From Bacteroidota bacterium (lineage in GTDB: Bacteria > Bacteroidota > Bacteroidia > NS11-12g > UBA955), in the NCBI GenBank assembly GCA_947460045.1, contig CANHGC010000025.1:1-10620 (forward strand): a DNA stretch of 10,620 nucleotides, read 5' to 3'. A program made the position numbers and the translations under genes. Numbering within the stretch: the first letter of the stretch is position 1; each line of letters begins with the position of its first letter. Shown in pieces: positions 3,637 to 10,620 of this stretch. Under the pieces are notes generated by a model, which was given only the letters and a program-made list of their open reading frames with translations, was not told where the DNA came from and did no database searches.

Positions 3637-4923
3637 TTAGTGCTTAATGAAGCGTTGAACAGCAGTACCCTCATTGGTTTCAACAGAAATCAAATAAGTA
3701 CCAGATGTTAAACCTTCAGTTGAAATGCGAACCGCTGACTTCTTCACCATTTCTTCCAAAACAACCTGACCGTTGAAATTCATCACACGAACAGCATTGA
3801 TTACAGAACCGTTGGTCATAGCCACGTTGAAATCGCCAAAAGATGGGTTGGGGTAAATCATCAAACCATTAACAGCATTGTTCACAACACCGCTGGTTGG
3901 CGCAGTGGTTTTCACCAACTCGTAGTGCCAGTATGCACCGTTACCAATTCCGATATCCACTTTCATGGTATCAGCAACAATCGCTACTTCGTAAACGATG
4001 GTATCTTTAGCCGCTGTAGGAGAAGCCAACTCACCACCATTGAAAGCCTTAGGCAATCCCAAGTAAGAACCTTTACCCACCAAAGTGATGGTTCCGTTGT
4101 TTTTGCTAGCTACCCACTTACCTGCGTTCGCACCATCATGAGGCGCTACTGGAGTACCGCAAGCAAATGAACCACCCTGCCATCCTTCCAAGAAGGTTGA
4201 ACCTTGCAATTCGTTTTTGAAGGTACCATCGGCACTGAAGCTGTAGATATCATCGTACTGACAAGCACGCACACCAGTAATTTCTGCTGCAGGAACTTTC
4301 CACCATCCGAAATCGCCTTTGGCAGGACCTACCGCCATAGACGTTTCTACTGGACGCAATTTCCACAAACCAGTTGGGTTCAATTCAGGCATTTTCTTGC
4401 TCATTTCGAAGTGCCAGTAACCACCGCCGATTGAAATATCCAAAGACATTTTGTTGCCGGTTACAGATACTTCGTAAGTGATAGAATCTTTGGCGTCCGC
4501 AGATTTTGCCAATTCACCACCGTTAAATACTTTGGCCAAACCCAAATAAGCACCTTTACCGTATACAGTAATGGTTCCTTTGGCAGCATTGTGCTTGTAA
4601 GTGTAACTTCCGGTTCCATCGTGAGGCGCAGCAGGTGTACCACAAGCGTTTGAACCACCCTGCCATCCTTCAAGGAAGGTAGAGTTTTGGAAATTCATTT
4701 TAAATGATCCATCGGCGTTGAAAACAAATTCATCGTCGAACTGACATGCACGCACACCGGTAATTTCCGCTGCAGGCACTTTCCACCATCCGTAGTCACC
4801 CTTTGCAGGGCCTACAGCCAATGAAGTTTCTACTGGCGACAATGTCCATGTACCAGCAATTTGAGCGATGCTGCTACCAACGAGGGCGGCAAACAAAGCG
4901 AGTGTAGTAATTTTTTTCATCAT
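3637..4923 (-). CDS. T9SS-secreted protein with two near-identical ~155-residue domains (putative glycan-locus surface protein)
   Basis: The 428-residue protein has a signal peptide at 1-20 (cut before Gln21), domain A at about 22-175, domain B at about 184-338, and a type IX secretion sorting tail at about 351-428 (IYPNP motif at 356-360, then GLTSGTYLISVE, end VQRFIKH). Both domains carry AVGPAKGD, a GWWKVPAAEITGVRAC block, STFLEGWQGG, ACGTPxAPHDG and YLGLxKxFNGGEL. Each domain has two cysteines (60/94 and 221/255) that could form a disulfide. I recall similar VGPxxGDxxWW / RACxxDD / GTPVAPHDG domains in surface proteins of Bacteroidota polysaccharide loci. No catalytic residues are recognisable, so glycan binding is a guess from the neighbouring susC-susD pair. 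It should be exported and anchored or released at the cell surface. The start ATG is followed by a second ATG, and a good -7 element lies just upstream. Confidence 0.9.
   Translation of the reverse strand: MMKKITTLALFAALVGSSIAQIAGTWTLSPVETSLAVGPAKGDYGWWKVPAAEITGVRACQFDDEFVFNADGSFKMNFQNSTFLEGWQGGSNACGTPAAPHDGTGSYTYKHNAAKGTITVYGKGAYLGLAKVFNGGELAKSADAKDSITYEVSVTGNKMSLDISIGGGYWHFEMSKKMPELNPTGLWKLRPVETSMAVGPAKGDFGWWKVPAAEITGVRACQYDDIYSFSADGTFKNELQGSTFLEGWQGGSFACGTPVAPHDGANAGKWVASKNNGTITLVGKGSYLGLPKAFNGGELASPTAAKDTIVYEVAIVADTMKVDIGIGNGAYWHYELVKTTAPTSGVVNNAVNGLMIYPNPSFGDFNVAMTNGSVINAVRVMNFNGQVVLEEMVKKSAVRISTEGLTSGTYLISVETNEGTAVQRFIKH
3910..4860 (-). repeat. Intragenic tandem domain duplication (two copies of ~465 bases)
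   Basis: Copy A (about 4860-4399) and copy B (about 4374-3910) encode the two homologous domains of the T9SS protein, separated by a short linker (MPELNPT). By eye the first 80 aligned residues match at about 63 positions with no gap. The second halves are less alike (for example TGSYTYKHNAAKGT against ANAGKWVASKNNGT). The codons have diverged at many synonymous sites, so the duplication is not very recent. Confidence 0.9.
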
Positions 4924-5403: not shown

Positions 5404-6762
5404 TCAATCCCTCAAGACCACCACGCGTTCTGTGATCACTGCATTGGGCGCATTCACTCGCACCAAATAATCGCCAGAATACAATTTTCTTAAATCGAAA
5501 TGTGCCATGGTACTACCTGCATATACGGTTTGTTGACCCATCACACGCCCCTGCAAATCCATCAATTCAACCACCACATTCGTTGATAGATACTTGGCAA
5601 TTTGAACCACCATTACATCTGAAGACGGATTCGGATAAATCGCAACTTTCACAACCTCCTTTTGCGAGAGGCCATTGGTCTGAGGCACATATGTAGTCAC
5701 CGCTTCCGTAACCGAAGTCACCTTCGACGCAGTGCGCACGCCATAATAAGTTGGACCAACAACATACGGATAGCTCGAATTCCATTGAGCGTCCACTGTA
5801 GCAAAATAGCAATAAATGCCATTGGGGTATTCTGGGGTTACACAAAAACGACCGTTGTGCTCATCCAAATAATCAGTTTGCTGTGCAGCGGGAGCCACGT
5901 ACTCGTAATCCTCCCTAAACAAACCCAAAGGATAAGTTGAATTCACTGCCGGACCATCCACCACATCTGAACCATCGGCATAATGGGTTCTCACGGCAAT
6001 GTTTCTCAGCTTATAACTGCTTTTCATTCGAACCAATTCTCCCGTACCATCCACATTCTTGAATCCATAGGCACCATATATCGGAAAACCGTCTACGGCA
6101 TATCCCAATAACGGGGCATGTTGCGAACTATCAATCACATACAGGCCATCTGCAGCATACAAATCACAAACATTCGATATCACCTTTTTATCCAATTTAA
6201 AAGCCGATGGATTTTGGTGGTGGTGGTAGTTACCCATCGCCGGATGTCCTTTCGCACAATCAAACCCGCCCCGTTCAGCCACTACCGCATCCCGATTCCA
6301 AACATTATCGCCCATCCCCATCAAAGGTCCCCCTTTTAACGTTTGCTGGGCATTGCTCCAACTCACCCCATCTCGATAATCAAACAGCGCAACACCATTG
6401 ATGAAAATTCCAATATTACCACCGGTCGTGTTGGTCGGAGTACCCGAATTTTTCACCGGCTTCAAAGACATTTTGAAAATCGCATTCTGATTTTGCGCCA
6501 AACTGGGATTGCCATCCAAAAACGGACCCGTGATATACGATGGTATACCCGTGGTTGTCACATACACCCAATCTGTTGAGTATTGCACCTTCTGAACATT
6601 CGCCAACACATCATCCGCCACCGGGGTTGAATTGCCTTTCACATAATGCCTACCCTTGATATTGGTGGTGTTTTGAATCCAATGAGTGATACCCGGATTG
6701 GTTTGGGCGATGACCGATCCGCTCAGCATCAACAAACAGAAGAAGTGTATTTTTCGTAACAT
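5404..6762 (-). CDS. YHYH-domain secreted protein with T9SS sorting tail
   Basis: I place the start at 6762, giving MLRKIHFFCLLMLSGSVIAQ, a clean signal peptide. The longer frame from 6855 would add a charged leader and overlap the peroxidase gene. The 452-residue product contains GHPAMGNYHHHQNPSAF (172-188), the hallmark of the YHYH family. It also has GYAVDGFPIYGAYGF (220-234) and a Cys pair in GRFCVTPEYPNGIYCYF (C307, C318). A T9SS tail spans about 366-452 (IYPNPSSDVMV at 375-385, then LYSGDYLVRV, end VVVLRD). YHYH proteins have no established activity. The His cluster (H173, H180-182) suggests metal binding, which fits the adjacent MbnP and di-haem peroxidase genes. It lies 55 bases downstream of the peroxidase gene with no terminator between them, so read-through is likely. 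Family assignment is firm; the metal role is inferred. Confidence 0.9.
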   Translation of the reverse strand: MLRKIHFFCLLMLSGSVIAQTNPGITHWIQNTTNIKGRHYVKGNSTPVADDVLANVQKVQYSTDWVYVTTTGIPSYITGPFLDGNPSLAQNQNAIFKMSLKPVKNSGTPTNTTGGNIGIFINGVALFDYRDGVSWSNAQQTLKGGPLMGMGDNVWNRDAVVAERGGFDCAKGHPAMGNYHHHQNPSAFKLDKKVISNVCDLYAADGLYVIDSSQHAPLLGYAVDGFPIYGAYGFKNVDGTGELVRMKSSYKLRNIAVRTHYADGSDVVDGPAVNSTYPLGLFREDYEYVAPAAQQTDYLDEHNGRFCVTPEYPNGIYCYFATVDAQWNSSYPYVVGPTYYGVRTASKVTSVTEAVTTYVPQTNGLSQKEVVKVAIYPNPSSDVMVVQIAKYLSTNVVVELMDLQGRVMGQQTVYAGSTMAHFDLRKLYSGDYLVRVNAPNAVITERVVVLRD

Positions 6763-6778
6763 ACTGTCCCTTAGACGA

Positions 6779-6786
6779 CAAAGTTC
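6779..6786 (-). promoter_or_regulatory. Weak candidate -7 element for the YHYH gene
   Basis: The minus strand reads GAACTTTG, seven of eight positions of TAnnTTTG, 16 bases before the chosen YHYH start codon. No TTG is found at -33. It may allow separate expression of the YHYH gene, but the match is imperfect and the gene could simply be read from the upstream operon. Confidence 0.2.
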
Positions 6787-6817
6787 AAGCAATGACTCGC
6801 ATTTTTTACTTTTTTCT

Positions 6818-7996
6818 TCAATCTCCTTTTCTTGGCGATTGTCGGGGATCCACAAAATCCTTGGAATACAAAAATTTCCGATCCGTCAATGTCAATAAAA
6901 AAACCACCAAATCCACTCGCTCATTGGCATCCAACGATATATCAATCACCGTTTGATATCCCTCACCCGATTCGCCCGAACCCACCAACTCGCCCGAACC
7001 ACCCACCTTACTTATACCTCCTGCTTTGCTCAAACCACCACTTTCGCCCCGAACCACCAACCGCTTTCCCGAATAGCTTTTCACCACCTGATACAAAGTT
7101 TGAAAAGCCCCATTGTGCATATACGGAAAACTTACTTCCACATTCCGCAACGTGGGAATCTTCATGTGATATTCATCAGCCACCAAACCCGTCACCAGCG
7201 CCCTCCCCCTATCCAACCCACTCAACCCAACACCCAAAGAATCAACCCGCCGCAACCCGTCAGCCCAACCATTATACTCATACTCAGGGCGGGTAAACAA
7301 GGGCTCGGCATGACATGCAGCACAAAATTTCTGATACAACGCATAACCCCTATTTTCTTGCTGGGTGAAGCGTACTTGATGCCTACGCATAGAATCGTAA
7401 CGAGACTGATCACTCACAAAAGTAAGCTCAAACCGAGCAATGGCTTTTAACGCCAATGGCAATGAAATCGGCTGATTTTGATAAGCCGCAGCAAACAAAG
7501 ATTGATAACGCGGATTTTGTTTTATACCGCTCAAATAATCTTGCAGAGTCATACCCATTTCGGTGTGTGCGGCGATGGGCGCCATGGACTGCAACTCCAA
7601 ATGTTGGATGGCACCGTCCCACATAAACCCAGATTGCCAAGCGAGGTTCATGAGGGCCGGCGCGTTGCGCCGACCCTCCCTGTCAAATACGCCGTGACTC
7701 AATTTATGGTCCACATGCGCAAAGGCCGTGTACGACGTATGACAGCTGCCACAGCTCACTTTGCCATCTGCCGACAGCGATTCATCGTAAAACAAGGTTC
7801 GTCCCAACGCAATTTCCGCATCCACATTCGCACCATTCGCAAATGCCATAAAAGGCTTTGGCCAACCCTCCCTCACCAATTTCTCATACCTGTGCGCGAC
7901 AAACTTCGCATCGCCAAATCCACCACCCGCATATCCCAAAATCACGCAACCACTCAAGGCAACACAAACAACCCCAATCCAACCGGTCCTTCTCAT
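6818..7996 (-). CDS. Di-haem cytochrome c peroxidase / MauG-MbnH-type lipoprotein
   Basis: The 392-residue protein carries two CxxCH haem sites, CGSCH (82-86) and CAACH (225-229). It also has family blocks LGRTLFYDESLSADGKVSCGSC, RRNAPALMNLAW (109-120), MWDGAIQHLELQSMAPIAAHTEMG (125-148) and IPTLRNVEVSFPYMHNGAF (280-298). Met278 or Met293 may be an axial ligand. The start includes a lipobox, LSGC (14-17), so it is probably a lipoprotein facing the periplasm. The family includes hydrogen peroxide-reducing CcpA enzymes and MauG-type enzymes that oxidise a protein partner. Its gene begins 4 bases after an mbnP gene, so an MbnH-like role, oxidising a Trp of MbnP, is the best guess. Near the C-terminus (about 316-347) there is an unusual Gly/Ser-rich insert. 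MbnH and CcpA cannot be told apart with certainty by eye. Confidence 0.93.
   Translation of the reverse strand: MRRTGWIGVVCVALSGCVILGYAGGGFGDAKFVAHRYEKLVREGWPKPFMAFANGANVDAEIALGRTLFYDESLSADGKVSCGSCHTSYTAFAHVDHKLSHGVFDREGRRNAPALMNLAWQSGFMWDGAIQHLELQSMAPIAAHTEMGMTLQDYLSGIKQNPRYQSLFAAAYQNQPISLPLALKAIARFELTFVSDQSRYDSMRRHQVRFTQQENRGYALYQKFCAACHAEPLFTRPEYEYNGWADGLRRVDSLGVGLSGLDRGRALVTGLVADEYHMKIPTLRNVEVSFPYMHNGAFQTLYQVVKSYSGKRLVVRGESGGLSKAGGISKVGGSGELVGSGESGEGYQTVIDISLDANERVDLVVFLLTLTDRKFLYSKDFVDPRQSPRKGD
6956..7051 (-). repeat. Gly/Ser-rich degenerate repeat insert inside the di-haem peroxidase gene
   Basis: This segment encodes residues 316-347, composed mainly of Gly, Ser, Glu, Lys and Val. The DNA shows repeated GGTTCGGGCGA units (two exact copies, and a third variant GGTTCGGGGCGA further 5' on the minus strand). 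It looks like a short-unit expansion. It lies between the VVKSYSGKRLVVRG block and the conserved IDISLDANERVDLVVFLLTL block, where homologues normally have a short loop. Confidence 0.7.
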
Positions 7997-8000
7997 CTTC

Positions 8001-8789
8001 TTATTCCGGATGATTTCTTGGCCGCACTCTATTCAATTCTCTTCGATTCTGAGGCGACCCCGATTTCCCATAACCTACCCATTCTTCCTCCAGATGTATG
8101 CCTTCGGCGATCAATGAACAGTATCTGCGCCCAGCGGAGCTGGGCGACATCACACGCAACTCATCGCCCAAATTCAACAACAACGAATCCAATGTCCAAA
8201 CAAAACCAAAACTACGATTTGAACGCCGCCGAGCATTTCCGTGAAATGGCTCAAGAAAAAAACCCATCCACATCATTGCCGTTTTATTCTCACCCTCAAA
8301 TCCACCCAAATGCAATTCCAATTTCCGCTCACCCGCCGAATCCCGCAACAGTCCCTCCAATTTAAATTGAATATATCCTGATTGCCATGTCCAATACATC
8401 CCGTGAACAGGATCCAAATCGCCATCCATCACCCCGCCTCGCTGCAATAAACTATCCACACCAAACAACAACTGAACAATAAAATCGCCTTTACGAGCAT
8501 CCACTTGGCGATGTAAACTTGCACTATCAGCCAAATCCAAGAGCCATGCTTCACCTGTCCGATCCTGCTGTTTGCCAGAGAAATAAGGCGTAACGTACCA
8601 GCGCATTACCTCAGCTTTGAATTCCAAACCGCCCGGCAGCTCCGTCCATTGATTCAGCACCAAAGGCTTTCCCGCCAACGCAACCCGATGATGAAAATCC
8701 AGGCTTTGCGCTTGTAACTGACCCGTGGCCGCGAACAAAAGTCCGAACACCCAGCGCCGAAGGCCCAAACCCAACAAAAAATCCATCAT
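8001..8789 (-). CDS. mbnP: MbnP-family secreted protein (copper-associated)
   Basis: The 262-residue protein begins with a signal peptide (cut likely after LQA, residue 27). It has the MbnP-family blocks LDFHHRVALAGKPL (30-43), RWYVTPYFSG (63-72), LLFGVDSLLQRGG (107-119), GDLDPVHGMYWTWQSGY then IQFKLEG (123-146), and LELHLGGFEG (157-166). In Methylosinus trichosporium MbnP binds copper after the di-haem enzyme MbnH converts a Trp to kynurenine. Here W133 and W135 in the most conserved block are obvious conserved Trps, but I cannot say which, if any, is modified. The peroxidase gene follows after 4 bases, the canonical MbnP/MbnH pairing. The last ~25 residues (from VGYGKSG) are Arg-rich and do not resemble the family. 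The family call is strong; copper specificity is inherited from the family. Confidence 0.92.
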   Translation of the reverse strand: MMDFLLGLGLRRWVFGLLFAATGQLQAQSLDFHHRVALAGKPLVLNQWTELPGGLEFKAEVMRWYVTPYFSGKQQDRTGEAWLLDLADSASLHRQVDARKGDFIVQLLFGVDSLLQRGGVMDGDLDPVHGMYWTWQSGYIQFKLEGLLRDSAGERKLELHLGGFEGENKTAMMWMGFFLEPFHGNARRRSNRSFGFVWTLDSLLLNLGDELRVMSPSSAGRRYCSLIAEGIHLEEEWVGYGKSGSPQNRRELNRVRPRNHPE

Positions 8790-8797
8790 GATTGTAT

Positions 8798-8805
8798 CAA
8801 ATCTA
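8798..8805 (-). promoter_or_regulatory. Possible internal -7 element before mbnP
   Basis: The 26-base gap before mbnP reads TAGATTTG on the minus strand, a perfect TAnnTTTG match nine bases before the ATG. Transcription from it would start almost at the start codon. No -33 TTG at the right spacing is present. It could give a separate, nearly leaderless mbnP transcript, or be chance. Confidence 0.25.
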
Positions 8806-8815
8806 GGGCAAATTA

Positions 8816-9307
8816 CTACCTTATTGGCATTTTTCCACCACCCGGCCGATGTTCAAACATCTCGTTGAATTCAATCACCATTTCTTCAAACGCCTTCACC
8901 TGTCTACCCTTACACAAACCCTGAATTTGCTTAAAATGTGCCACGTGCAATTGATGTATTTCTGTTTGAAGCGACCCAATTTCTCTACAAATTTGTGCGG
9001 TCGCCGCCGAATCCATCTCATCAGTTACCCCTACAAAAAGCGTTTGCCTCAACGCATTGATTTTCCGCTCGCGTTCCCCAACCCCATTCCGATGCGATGC
9101 AATAAAACACTCATATTTTTCCACCTGCCGCTCATTCAATTGCAGCCGCGCGATGATCTCTTTCTTTGGACCTTCTCCGCCACCGCCCCGTCTGCCCGCG
9201 CCTCGGTTTCCCTGTAAAGCGCTCACCCAAAATCCCGCCACCACCAATACATTCAACACCAAAAGGGCCAACACCCAACGATTGTTTATCTCAATTTTCA
9301 TGGTCAT
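8816..9307 (-). CDS. Spy/CpxP-like membrane-anchored periplasmic protein (putative metal sensor)
   Basis: The 163-residue protein has a transmembrane anchor at about 11-31, a Gly/Arg-rich linker (34-47), then a helical periplasmic domain. LQLNERQVEKYE (55-66) matches the LxLTxxQ motif of the Spy/CpxP and heavy-metal-sensor (CnrX-like) families. The domain has many potential metal ligands: C67, H72, H118, H121, H124 (HQLHVAHF) and C132. In Bacteroidota such proteins are commonly encoded after an ECF sigma gene and a small membrane protein, as here. By analogy with CnrX it may sense envelope metal and control the sigma factor. Two starts are possible, ATG at 9307 (MTMK) or 9301 (MK); both overlap the preceding gene, by 17 or 11 bases, which suggests coupling. 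The family call is fairly good; the sensing role is inferred. Confidence 0.8.
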   Translation of the reverse strand: MTMKIEINNRWVLALLVLNVLVVAGFWVSALQGNRGAGRRGGGGEGPKKEIIARLQLNERQVEKYECFIASHRNGVGERERKINALRQTLFVGVTDEMDSAATAQICREIGSLQTEIHQLHVAHFKQIQGLCKGRQVKAFEEMVIEFNEMFEHRPGGGKMPIR

Positions 9308-9641
9308 ATAATTGTTCGGTTTGATTCAAAAAATCACCCATCAATTCCGCACTAGCAATATCACCCGTGCTGGGCCCTTGCAATGCACCCCGAATCACCA
9401 TCACCTCCAAAAATACCACTACCAAGGCCGCAAAAATCCAAGTAACATTGAGTGACCACCCAACACTTTTCGCGCCCGATCCCAACATCGCCCCTTTCCA
9501 TCCCAATTCTTCGCGATACGATTTTTCCTCACGCTTCGATTCAATCTTCGATACAACCCTTGAAAACACAAATGGAGACACCTCCACCCGATTCACACGA
9601 TTTGCCGGCGCAAATGGATCAAAATCTTGTTTCTTTTTCAT
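9291..9641 (-). CDS. Small single-pass membrane protein, candidate anti-sigma factor
   Basis: The 116-residue protein has a charged cytoplasmic-type N-terminus (1-60), one transmembrane helix (about 63-83, SLNVTWIFAALVVVFLEVMV) and a short acidic C-terminal tail. The N-terminal VEVSPFVFSRVVSKIE (19-34) resembles a motif I associate with small membrane proteins encoded after ECF sigma factors in Bacteroidota. It lies between the sigma gene (73-base gap) and the Spy/CpxP-like gene (overlapping stop and start), the position expected of an anti-sigma factor. It has no cysteines and so no HxxxCxxC zinc motif, so it would not be a classical zinc-binding anti-sigma. The function is inferred from position and topology only. 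Confidence 0.75.
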   Translation of the reverse strand: MKKKQDFDPFAPANRVNRVEVSPFVFSRVVSKIESKREEKSYREELGWKGAMLGSGAKSVGWSLNVTWIFAALVVVFLEVMVIRGALQGPSTGDIASAELMGDFLNQTEQLYDHEN

Positions 9642-9658
9642 GATTTATAAAAGAGTTC

Positions 9659-9675
9659 TTGTTGAGCATCAACAA
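9659..9675. repeat. Perfect 7-3-7 palindrome between the sigma and membrane-protein genes
   Basis: TTGTTGA and TCAACAA flank a three-base centre (GCA), within the 73-base gap. The stem is AT-rich and no T-tract follows on the minus strand, so it is a poor terminator. It could be an operator, an mRNA processing or attenuation hairpin, or chance. Confidence 0.4.
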
Positions 9676-9714
9676 CAAACTGCCTGTTGACTAGAGGCTT
9701 AGACGATACTTTTC

Positions 9715-10242
9715 TCATTTCCCTTCGCTTTTTTGTGAAAATTTGACCAGATTCTTCCTTGCCCTGCCCAACAAAGATTCCACCGCCTTTTCCGTTGTTC
9801 CCAAAATCTGTGCGGCCTCCGAAATCTCCAATCCTTCCATCCGCACCAATATCAAGGCCGTACGCTGTTTTTCGGGCAAGCAATCGATCCAACCAAACCA
9901 CTGTTTTAATTCTTCTTTGTATTCCAATGCCACCCCGGGATGATTAAATTCCGTATCCTGCTGTGGCACCCACTGCGTAAACACATCAAAATATTGCAAC
10001 ACACCCCAACCCCGCTTCTGCGCACCCCTCAATTTCAACTTGTCCAATGAGCGATTCACCGCGATGCGATAAATCCAGGTTCCCAAACTCGATTTCCCCT
10101 CAAACTGCATACCCTTCTCATGAACCGCCAAAAACACATCCTGAACCACCTCTTCGGCATCTTCAACATTCCTCAGATGATTCAAGGCGATGTTGTAAAC
10201 ACGGTGAACGTGTTGTCGGTATATTTCTTCCAGAGACTGCAA
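9715..10242 (-). CDS. ECF-type RNA polymerase sigma factor
   Basis: The 175-residue protein has region sigma-2 at about 6-74 (EIYRQHVHRVYNIALNHL, EDAEEVVQDVFLAV, then GKSSLGTWIYRIAVNRSLDK) and region sigma-4 at about 108-170 (IDCLPEKQRTALILVRMEGL, then EISEAAQILGTTEKAVESLL with the DNA-binding helix-turn-helix). It has no sigma-1 or sigma-3 region, as expected of ECF sigmas. The chosen start is TTG at 10242: an in-frame TGA lies five codons upstream, no ATG is available before the sigma-2 region, and the family needs this N-terminus. It heads the cluster and probably directs its transcription in response to envelope metal or redox stress, with the two following genes as candidate regulators. 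Confidence 0.93.
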   Translation of the reverse strand: MQSLEEIYRQHVHRVYNIALNHLRNVEDAEEVVQDVFLAVHEKGMQFEGKSSLGTWIYRIAVNRSLDKLKLRGAQKRGWGVLQYFDVFTQWVPQQDTEFNHPGVALEYKEELKQWFGWIDCLPEKQRTALILVRMEGLEISEAAQILGTTEKAVESLLGRARKNLVKFSQKSEGK

Positions 10243-10259: not shown

Positions 10260-10289
10260 AAAAACAAGACGACAAAAATCACGGTCGTC
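10260..10289 (-). terminator. Terminator-like hairpin after hutI, upstream of the sigma gene
   Basis: On the minus strand GACGAC (10289-10284) pairs perfectly with GTCGTC (10273-10268) across a ten-base loop, followed by TTGTTTTT (10267-10260). It begins about 18 bases after the hutI stop and fits a modest intrinsic terminator. The same inverted repeat lies 26 bases before the sigma-factor start, and its loop overlaps GATTTTTG (10280-10273), seven of eight to the -7 consensus. It might therefore act as an operator or promoter region instead. Confidence 0.5.
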
Positions 10290-10307: not shown

Positions 10308-10620
10308 TTATTTACTTAAAAATTCTTCACCGCCAACAAACACGCGATCACAATGGTTGCGTCCCATGAAGTAAGGAATGGCTTTAACAGCATCCACGGT
10401 TTTGGTGGTGAAGAAGTTCGCGCGCTGTCCGCAGGCCAACGAACCAACTTCTTCTTCGCAACGCAGCGCACGCGCTGCGTTGCAAGTAATCGCATAAAAC
10501 GCCTCCGCCGGCAACAACTTCATCTGCGTGCAAGCCAATGCCCACACTATCTGCAAGCTCCCAATCGGACTGCTACCCGGATTGAAATCCGTAGCCATCG
10601 CAAAAGGCAAACCCGCATCA
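10308..10620 (-). CDS. hutI: Imidazolonepropionase, C-terminal 104 residues (start beyond window)
   Basis: HutI hydrolyses 4-imidazolone-5-propionate to N-formimino-L-glutamate, the third step of histidine degradation, in the cytoplasm. The fragment begins DAGLPFAMATDFNPGSSPIG, the highly conserved HutI block whose Asp belongs to the metal/catalytic centre of the amidohydrolase fold. It continues with WALACTQMKLLPAEAFYAIT, a CNAARALRCEEEVGSLACGQ segment, and the RANFFTTK strand that returns to the small beta domain. The frame stays open to the window edge, so the gene continues to the right. The full family length is about 400 residues, so roughly a quarter is visible. A terminator-like hairpin follows. 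No other hut genes are in view. Confidence 0.93.
   Translation of the reverse strand, partial: DAGLPFAMATDFNPGSSPIGSLQIVWALACTQMKLLPAEAFYAITCNAARALRCEEEVGSLACGQRANFFTTKTVDAVKAIPYFMGRNHCDRVFVGGEEFLSK

Follow-up and report, generated by a model that had tools for sequence, protein, structure and literature searches.

An ECF sigma factor trio, an MbnP/MbnH-like pair and a YHYH protein recur together in Bacteroidota and may form a metal-handling regulon

Cobalt-nickel control in Cupriavidus is exerted by CnrYXH, encoded in the order cnrYXH. For Phocaeicola vulgatus, excerpts of one study describe cirYZ-spy, made up of an extracytoplasmic function (ECF) sigma factor, an anti-sigma factor and a Spy-like gene, with two downstream genes that belong to the same regulon and are transcriptionally unlinked (PMC13114119). 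The MbnP/MbnH pair of Methylosinus consists of adjacent genes for MbnP and a di-haem enzyme (TIGR04052/TIGR04039, GenProp0940; excerpts of PMC3621798). MopE and CorA/CorB of methanotrophs are described, again in excerpts, as having a copper protein located on the cell surface or beyond it, with kynurenine used in the MopE site (PMC3423442, PMC3912023); CorA is paired with the di-haem peroxidase CorB, and neither system is markedly similar to MbnP by sequence (excerpts of PMC3621798). Here we analyse a stretch of 10,620 nucleotides from a Bacteroidota genome (contig CANHGC010000025.1 of assembly GCA_947460045.1), hereafter the window, which carries a six-gene module encoding, from upstream to downstream, an ECF sigma factor, a small transmembrane (TM) protein, a Spy/CnrX-like sensor candidate, an MbnP-family protein, a di-haem enzyme and a YHYH protein with a type IX secretion system (T9SS) signal (Table 1). 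We lean towards interpreting this module as an envelope metal-handling regulon, most likely for copper, that would be under the control of the ECF sigma factor it encodes.

Like the Methylosinus pair, the window has adjacent genes for MbnP and a di-haem enzyme, the WxW motif, the MbnP fold (7L6G) and the MauG-type Tyr ligand position. It differs in that no methanobactin genes were seen in the window, that both NCBIfam equivalog cut-offs are missed, that the enzyme has an extra His/Asp cluster, and that the pair lies behind an ECF trio and before a YHYH gene. CnrYXH and the window both combine a sigma factor, a small single-pass anti-sigma-like protein and a membrane-anchored sensor of the Metal_resist type, whereas the window contains no resistance pump, has a different gene order and shows weak sequence similarity. 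MopE and CorA/CorB are not known to be associated with an ECF trio or a YHYH protein. The sigma/anti-sigma-like/Spy trio is in itself a common arrangement similar to cirYZ-spy, to which it is likened by described order alone (ECF sigma, anti-sigma, Spy-like gene, in the same order); the cargo of cirYZ-spy is, however, carbohydrate- or peptidoglycan-related according to the excerpts (PMC13114119), as against the MbnP/MbnH-like pair and YHYH in the window.

In the open reading frame (ORF) listing of the window, all six genes lie on the minus strand, separated by 73 bases, a 17-base overlap, and gaps of 26, 4 and 55 bases, the last of these with the YHYH ATG placed at 6762-6760; the listed YHYH ORF (5404-6855) was rejected as over-extended. 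A first-pass annotation, made from the letters of the window, had given the same gaps, the overlap without its length, and all are confirmed. That the layout goes beyond chance is indicated by the recurrence of this gene order across many genera.

Across 108 genomes of the window's order, MbnP was found in 103, YHYH in 61 and the sensor in 32. Eighty regions were fetched (53 at YHYH matches of at least 94 bits, seven at sensor matches without such a YHYH, and 20 at MbnP matches), and their genes were labelled by profiles grown from the window's proteins. The order-level YHYH count comprises 54 genes including the window's own, weaker YHYH types being left out; four have no upstream DNA, and in 41 of the remaining 50 a same-strand MbnH lies upstream. 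Eight of the nine without it belong to a shorter YHYH subtype (~400 residues), while the one other, L119, has a sulfatase in front of it and the contig ending 1.6 kb away from it. Several genera have three extra genes, for a multicopper oxidase and a sulfatase, both T9SS-tailed, and an AhpC/TSA redoxin, that are inserted between MbnH and YHYH or follow YHYH. The apparent lack of MbnP in one region (L101) is an artefact, the gene (233 residues, 8357-9058) having been dropped by the gene caller for an overlapping ORF.

A scan of named genomes, limited to the best 80 YHYH loci and partly overlapping the order-level set (L275 and G081, for example, are the same contig), placed MbnH upstream in 59 of the 77 loci that have more than 400 bases of upstream DNA. 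Where more than 3.5 kb was available (62 loci), MbnH was found in 50, MbnP in 46, sigma in 25, the sensor in 24 and a multicopper oxidase in five. The names under which the MbnH-linked records were deposited (Flavobacteriales, Chitinophagales, Sphingobacteriales, Saprospirales and Kapaibacterium) are rough, most records being metagenome assemblies. The partners stay together in rearranged gene orders as well (L308, L319, L322). Seen from the sensor, 71 genes are followed by MbnP/MbnH or YHYH in 61 cases, by a second YHYH type in six, by a multicopper oxidase and redoxin in one and by none of these in three, counts that do not represent a rate, these loci having been picked around matches. The co-occurrence of YHYH, MbnP, di-haem peroxidase, ECF sigma and Spy-type genes that had been proposed from the window is, by the order-level and named-genome counts, recurrent.

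Other arrangements of these genes were also observed. The window's genome holds a second MbnP/MbnH pair (G000:C143, L161) behind a gene that clusters with a T9SS-tailed M1 peptidase, a label taken from a Pfam run on the L169 copy, and this layout is repeated in four other genomes (loci L167-L170). In L383 and L385 the sigma/TM/Spy trio is directly followed by an MbnH-like gene, with no MbnP labelled in between.

The genes of the module are further connected by a putative two-part promoter. Within the genus, TTTGTCGTCT was first noticed upstream of both sigma and YHYH. The 10-mer TTTTGTCGTC alone was discarded as a promoter, most of its other genomic copies lying inside genes, and a two-part motif was adopted; in three of the genus's genomes the same 10-mer also stands close to where a large secreted protein begins (L244, G000:C165; L264, G089:C174; L253, G092:C75). 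The motif was learned by two-block expectation-maximisation only on 95 de-duplicated upstream regions of YHYH genes with MbnH nearby, window included, and was counted as present at 10 bits or more. It reads nCGaAgGA-N13-17-tCGTCTAA, mostly with N14 (core form CGAAGGA-N14-TCGTCTAA). It is present in 57 of the 95 training regions, among which is the window's own site at 6771..6802, and upstream of YHYH genes without MbnH (14/39), other YHYH types (7/27), sigma genes preceding a sensor (14/58), multicopper oxidases (6/25), MbnP (8/109), MbnH (1/118), Spy (0/60), sulfatases (1/21), redoxins (1/20) and phosphatase-like genes (0/28), against a background of 34/1430 for other genes and 8/580 for shuffled sequences.

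TM-labelled genes score high (23/25) because their upstream region is the sigma/anti-sigma junction. At this junction the motif was found in 59 of 61 trio loci, compared with 41 of 1120 control junctions; it was present in 48 of 49 MbnP-linked loci and in 11 of the 12 others, which include three that carry module genes (L101, L319, L322). Coding constraint is disfavoured as its cause because the offset of the -35 box from the sigma stop codon differs between loci. A sample of 390 genomes of the phylum yielded 30 loci, 28 with a labelled sigma and 21 with the junction motif (18 of 25 after removing three loci used earlier). The window's assembly, which is 80% complete, holds a single exact match to CGAAGGN{15,16}CGTCTA, located at the junction. 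As the junction and YHYH share the motif, the sensor set, the MbnP/di-haem pair and YHYH appear to make up a single ECF regulon served by two promoters. The system had been called self-regulated in the first-pass annotation: the shared motif supports a link between the sigma set and YHYH, but the window's sigma gene is preceded only by a -10-like half site. The motif lies upstream of sigma itself in 15 of the 49 MbnP-linked loci, and strict autoregulation is suggested for some relatives only. Exact matches were also read by eye 34 bases before the start of a carboxypeptidase-regulatory-like receptor (L356, G048:C110) and 21 bases before an FG-GAP-like protein (L364, G098:C60), both of which are possible further members of the regulon.

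The window's MbnP protein exceeds the cut-off of its Pfam family (Table 1) and falls below that of the equivalog TIGR04052 (20.5 bits, cut-off 140). W133-T-W135 (the WxW motif), H160 and M131 are invariant in 43 of 43 module copies, and M214 is present in 40. A fold search was needed because a profile search of PDB sequences with MbnP gave no match; the predicted structure (pLDDT 83) matches MbnP 7L6G far ahead of all other matches. Manesis and colleagues reportedly found in 2021 that kynurenine is formed from the first of the two Trp in the WxW motif of MbnP and that the copper site uses His and Met.

The di-haem enzyme belongs to PF03150, with haem motifs C82/C85/H86 and C225/C228/H229, and is classed only as MauG/BthA/MbnH-like because it does not reach the cut-off of the MbnH equivalog TIGR04039 (184 bits, cut-off 363). 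Tyr308 is conserved in 48 of 49 rows, the remaining row being gapped, and aligns to a Tyr of BthA and to a Met of a CcP, a position that we take to be that of the haem ligand. In a quick tree, one clade (SH-aLRT 97) takes in 47 of the 49 module MbnH copies and stands next to four copies from another context; the two module copies outside it are extra copies in L216. Module copies are marked by a His/Asp cluster, H94-x-D96-H97-x3-H101 (H94, D96 and H97 in 46 of 49, H101 in 47), which is a possible extra metal site; 25 of 26 non-module copies have D or E at position 94.

As for the regulatory trio, the small TM protein (9291..9641) matched no Pfam or NCBIfam family, and its hydropathy profile shows a single TM helix. 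This helix is preceded by 30-70 residues in most of the 38 copies, and we consider the protein a candidate anti-sigma-like factor. An invariant tail Tyr held only for 17 chosen aligned copies, 29 of the 38 having a Tyr within the last eight residues. Excerpts of one survey place class I anti-sigmas near only 6% of Bacteroidetes ECFs (PMC7406223). The sensor scores 25.3 bits against Metal_resist (PF13801), under its cut-off of 29.2, and has weak NccX and Spy matches; among 23 aligned relatives, 13 match Metal_resist at E<=0.01 and five match LTXXQ. It has an N-terminal anchor, and Q61, C132 and Q136 are invariant in these 23. C132 occurs in 30/30 MbnP-linked and 9/10 other sensors, H72/H124 in 26/30 and 6/10, respectively; four MbnP-linked sensors are without both His, and the pair was rejected as a hallmark of MbnP linkage. 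These four sensors (L106, L115, L130, L143) are divergent and accompanied by a divergent TM protein without the tail Tyr. The TTG start of the sigma gene, at position 10242 of the window, is a weak start codon that is also found in several relatives.

According to the metal-handling interpretation, the small membrane protein would keep the sigma factor tethered to the inner membrane, and the membrane-anchored Spy/CnrX-like protein would sense periplasmic metal or envelope damage and relieve this hold. The freed sigma factor would then read the core motif at the junction, leading to expression of the anti-sigma, the sensor, MbnP and the di-haem enzyme, and would also read the further copy upstream of YHYH. 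In the WxW motif of MbnP, the leading Trp would be oxidised to kynurenine by the di-haem enzyme, creating a copper site, and YHYH, exported by the type IX system, would be an outer-surface partner and probably a metal-binding protein. Linkage and shared motif together indicate that YHYH is a partner in the system. Its residues H171, H178, H180, H213, D222 and D298 are invariant in 30 aligned sequences, as is Y177 of the Y-H-x-H motif (numbered on the fragment 5404-6756, which lacks two residues of the complete protein), and this His/Asp set would be compatible with a metal site like the one predicted in phage YHYH (excerpts of PMC7824862).

Several observations weigh against this interpretation. 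YHYH is often found without MbnH outside the window's order: it occurs in 39 of 395 genomes of a phylum sample, and only seven of the 23 loci fetched around 24 strong matches besides the window's own have a same-strand MbnH within 7 kb (L201, L204, L205, L212, L216, L220, L222). The candidate metal-ligand pair H72/H124 is absent from the four MbnP-linked sensors mentioned above. The motif is also present upstream of other sigma genes (3/11), the window's region upstream of sigma scores -1.6 bits, and a shared-word test between sigma and YHYH upstream regions was only mildly positive (9/50 exceeding the 95th percentile of the control). Genome-wide there is no enrichment of the exact pattern, with 10 matches spread over nine of 12 genomes, against 12 for the reversed control; seven of the 10 fall in this module. 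Finally, the trio is common without MbnP, a sensor relative (E<=1e-6) being present in 153 of 390 phylum genomes, and as read by eye it precedes a likely mechanosensitive channel in L373 and L374, so the signal may be general envelope stress.

A general envelope-stress regulon is possible but in our view rather doubtful. Here the trio would sense misfolding or oxidative damage as in cirYZ-spy, with MbnP/MbnH/YHYH as one of several cargos and copper as incidental. Such a role is in line with the frequency of the trio in the absence of MbnP, with the AhpC/TSA redoxin and sulfatase genes of related operons, with the incomplete conservation of H72/H124 even among MbnP-linked sensors, and with excerpts reporting that cirYZ-spy of P. 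vulgatus is strongly up in colitis and that deletion of the anti-sigma raises sigma, spy and the two downstream genes (PMC13114119). On the other hand, copper-type cargo is repeated (MbnP/MbnH, multicopper oxidase, SCO1 near short YHYH), and C132 is present in every MbnP-linked sensor, yet also in nearly all others.

We regard as unlikely that YHYH is a cell-surface metal-dependent hydrolase whose metal is supplied or guarded by MbnP and MbnH. In favour of such a role are the invariant His/Asp set given above and a jumbo-phage genomics paper that predicts a Zn site and a hydrolase role for YHYH in phage tails (excerpts of PMC7824862), and neighbours of YHYH include sulfatase and purple-acid-phosphatase-like genes. 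That role is itself a prediction, however, and when YHYH was compared with PDB structures by Foldseek, the T9SS tail alone had significant matches, with no hydrolase fold recognised. A role for YHYH as a further target of Trp oxidation by the di-haem enzyme, which the first-pass annotation had raised as a possibility, is highly improbable. The YHYH-MbnH linkage in the window's order is tight, and W133 is present in 17/22 and W325 in 16/22 MbnH-linked YHYH. Yet none of the Trp residues combines invariance in linked YHYH with absence elsewhere: the only two invariant ones (W26, W153) are found in all 30 aligned sequences, including eight in which no MbnH was seen (L119 and L203 among them, near contig ends), and W133 and W325 have exceptions and occur in L119 and L203 too. 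The T9SS tail also sends YHYH outside, whereas the enzyme's N-terminus is lipobox-like by eye.

Returning to metal handling, three types of YHYH occur with the trio, with copper proteins, or with both. A membrane-anchored type (YHYH2) lies behind its own trio in L110, L124, L145 and L233, and a short type has SCO1/SenC nearby in 3/3 scanned loci (L224, L226, L238), with a MORN_2 protein above cut-off in L238 only, where the trio and an LTXXQ protein lie upstream. Judged from the cargo (the fold and WxW motif of MbnP, a multicopper oxidase, and SCO1 in the neighbourhood of other YHYH genes), the metal would most plausibly be copper; the copper handling proposed in the first-pass annotation is plausible on this indirect evidence. 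An open-literature search found no paper joining YHYH and copper; excerpts of one paper list the YHYH Pfam in diatoms. More tentatively, and short of calling it probable, we propose that YHYH proteins (PF14240) could be secreted copper proteins, outer-surface partners of kynurenine-type MbnP copper sites in Bacteroidota, turned on through the core motif by an ECF sigma factor that answers to a Spy/CnrX-type sensor.

Two regions (L097 in G088, L101 in G081) have an opposite-strand cassette downstream of YHYH that is missing from the window and consists of two purple-acid-phosphatase-like genes, YHYH2 and an Lcl-domain protein; the YHYH2 of L101 has the promoter motif at 17.5 bits. The downstream lipocalin and SusC/SusD genes of the window were not retained as module members: in G088, where the Lipocalin_4-like T9SS gene is also found, four opposite-strand genes intervene between YHYH and them.

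Table 1. Genes and promoter-like sites of the module and its neighbours, in window coordinates.
Feature	Position	Strand	Details
ECF sigma factor, TTG start	9715..10242	-	Sigma70_r2 57 bits, r4_2 54 bits, both above cut-off
Small single-pass protein, anti-sigma-like (candidate)	9291..9641	-	cytoplasmic N-part, TM 69-87, short Tyr-containing tail
Membrane-anchored Spy/CnrX-like periplasmic sensor candidate	8816..9307	-	C132, Q61, Q136 conserved; H72, H124 in most relatives
MbnP-family protein	8001..8789	-	PF20243 69.1 bits (cut-off 27); W133-x-W135, H160, M131
MauG/BthA/MbnH-like di-haem c enzyme	6818..7996	-	CCP_MauG 155 bits (cut-off 25.6); two CxxCH; Tyr308
YHYH protein, T9SS type A C-terminal signal	5404..6762	-	YHYH (PF14240) 194.8 bits (cut-off 25); sorting domain PF18962 40.8 (cut-off 27), TIGR04183 42.6 (cut-off 23)
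ECF-type promoter-like site GCGAAGGG-N14-TCGTCTAA	9699..9728	-	spans sigma stop codon; 22.4 bits
Second promoter-like site ATGCGAGT-N16-TCGTCTAA before YHYH	6771..6802	-	weak -35; 17.3 bits
-10-like half site TTTTGTCGTCT upstream of sigma	10267..10277	-	conserved in five genomes of the genus
hutI, end of gene	10308-10619		upstream neighbour of the module
Lipocalin_4-like T9SS protein, seemingly duplicated (by eye)	3637-4923		downstream, before SusC/SusD pair

YHYH, a domain of unknown function, thereby gains a testable pathway and partners, and kynurenine-type copper proteins gain a putative regulator in Bacteroidota. The concrete promoter motif lets the regulon be read in other genomes of the phylum.

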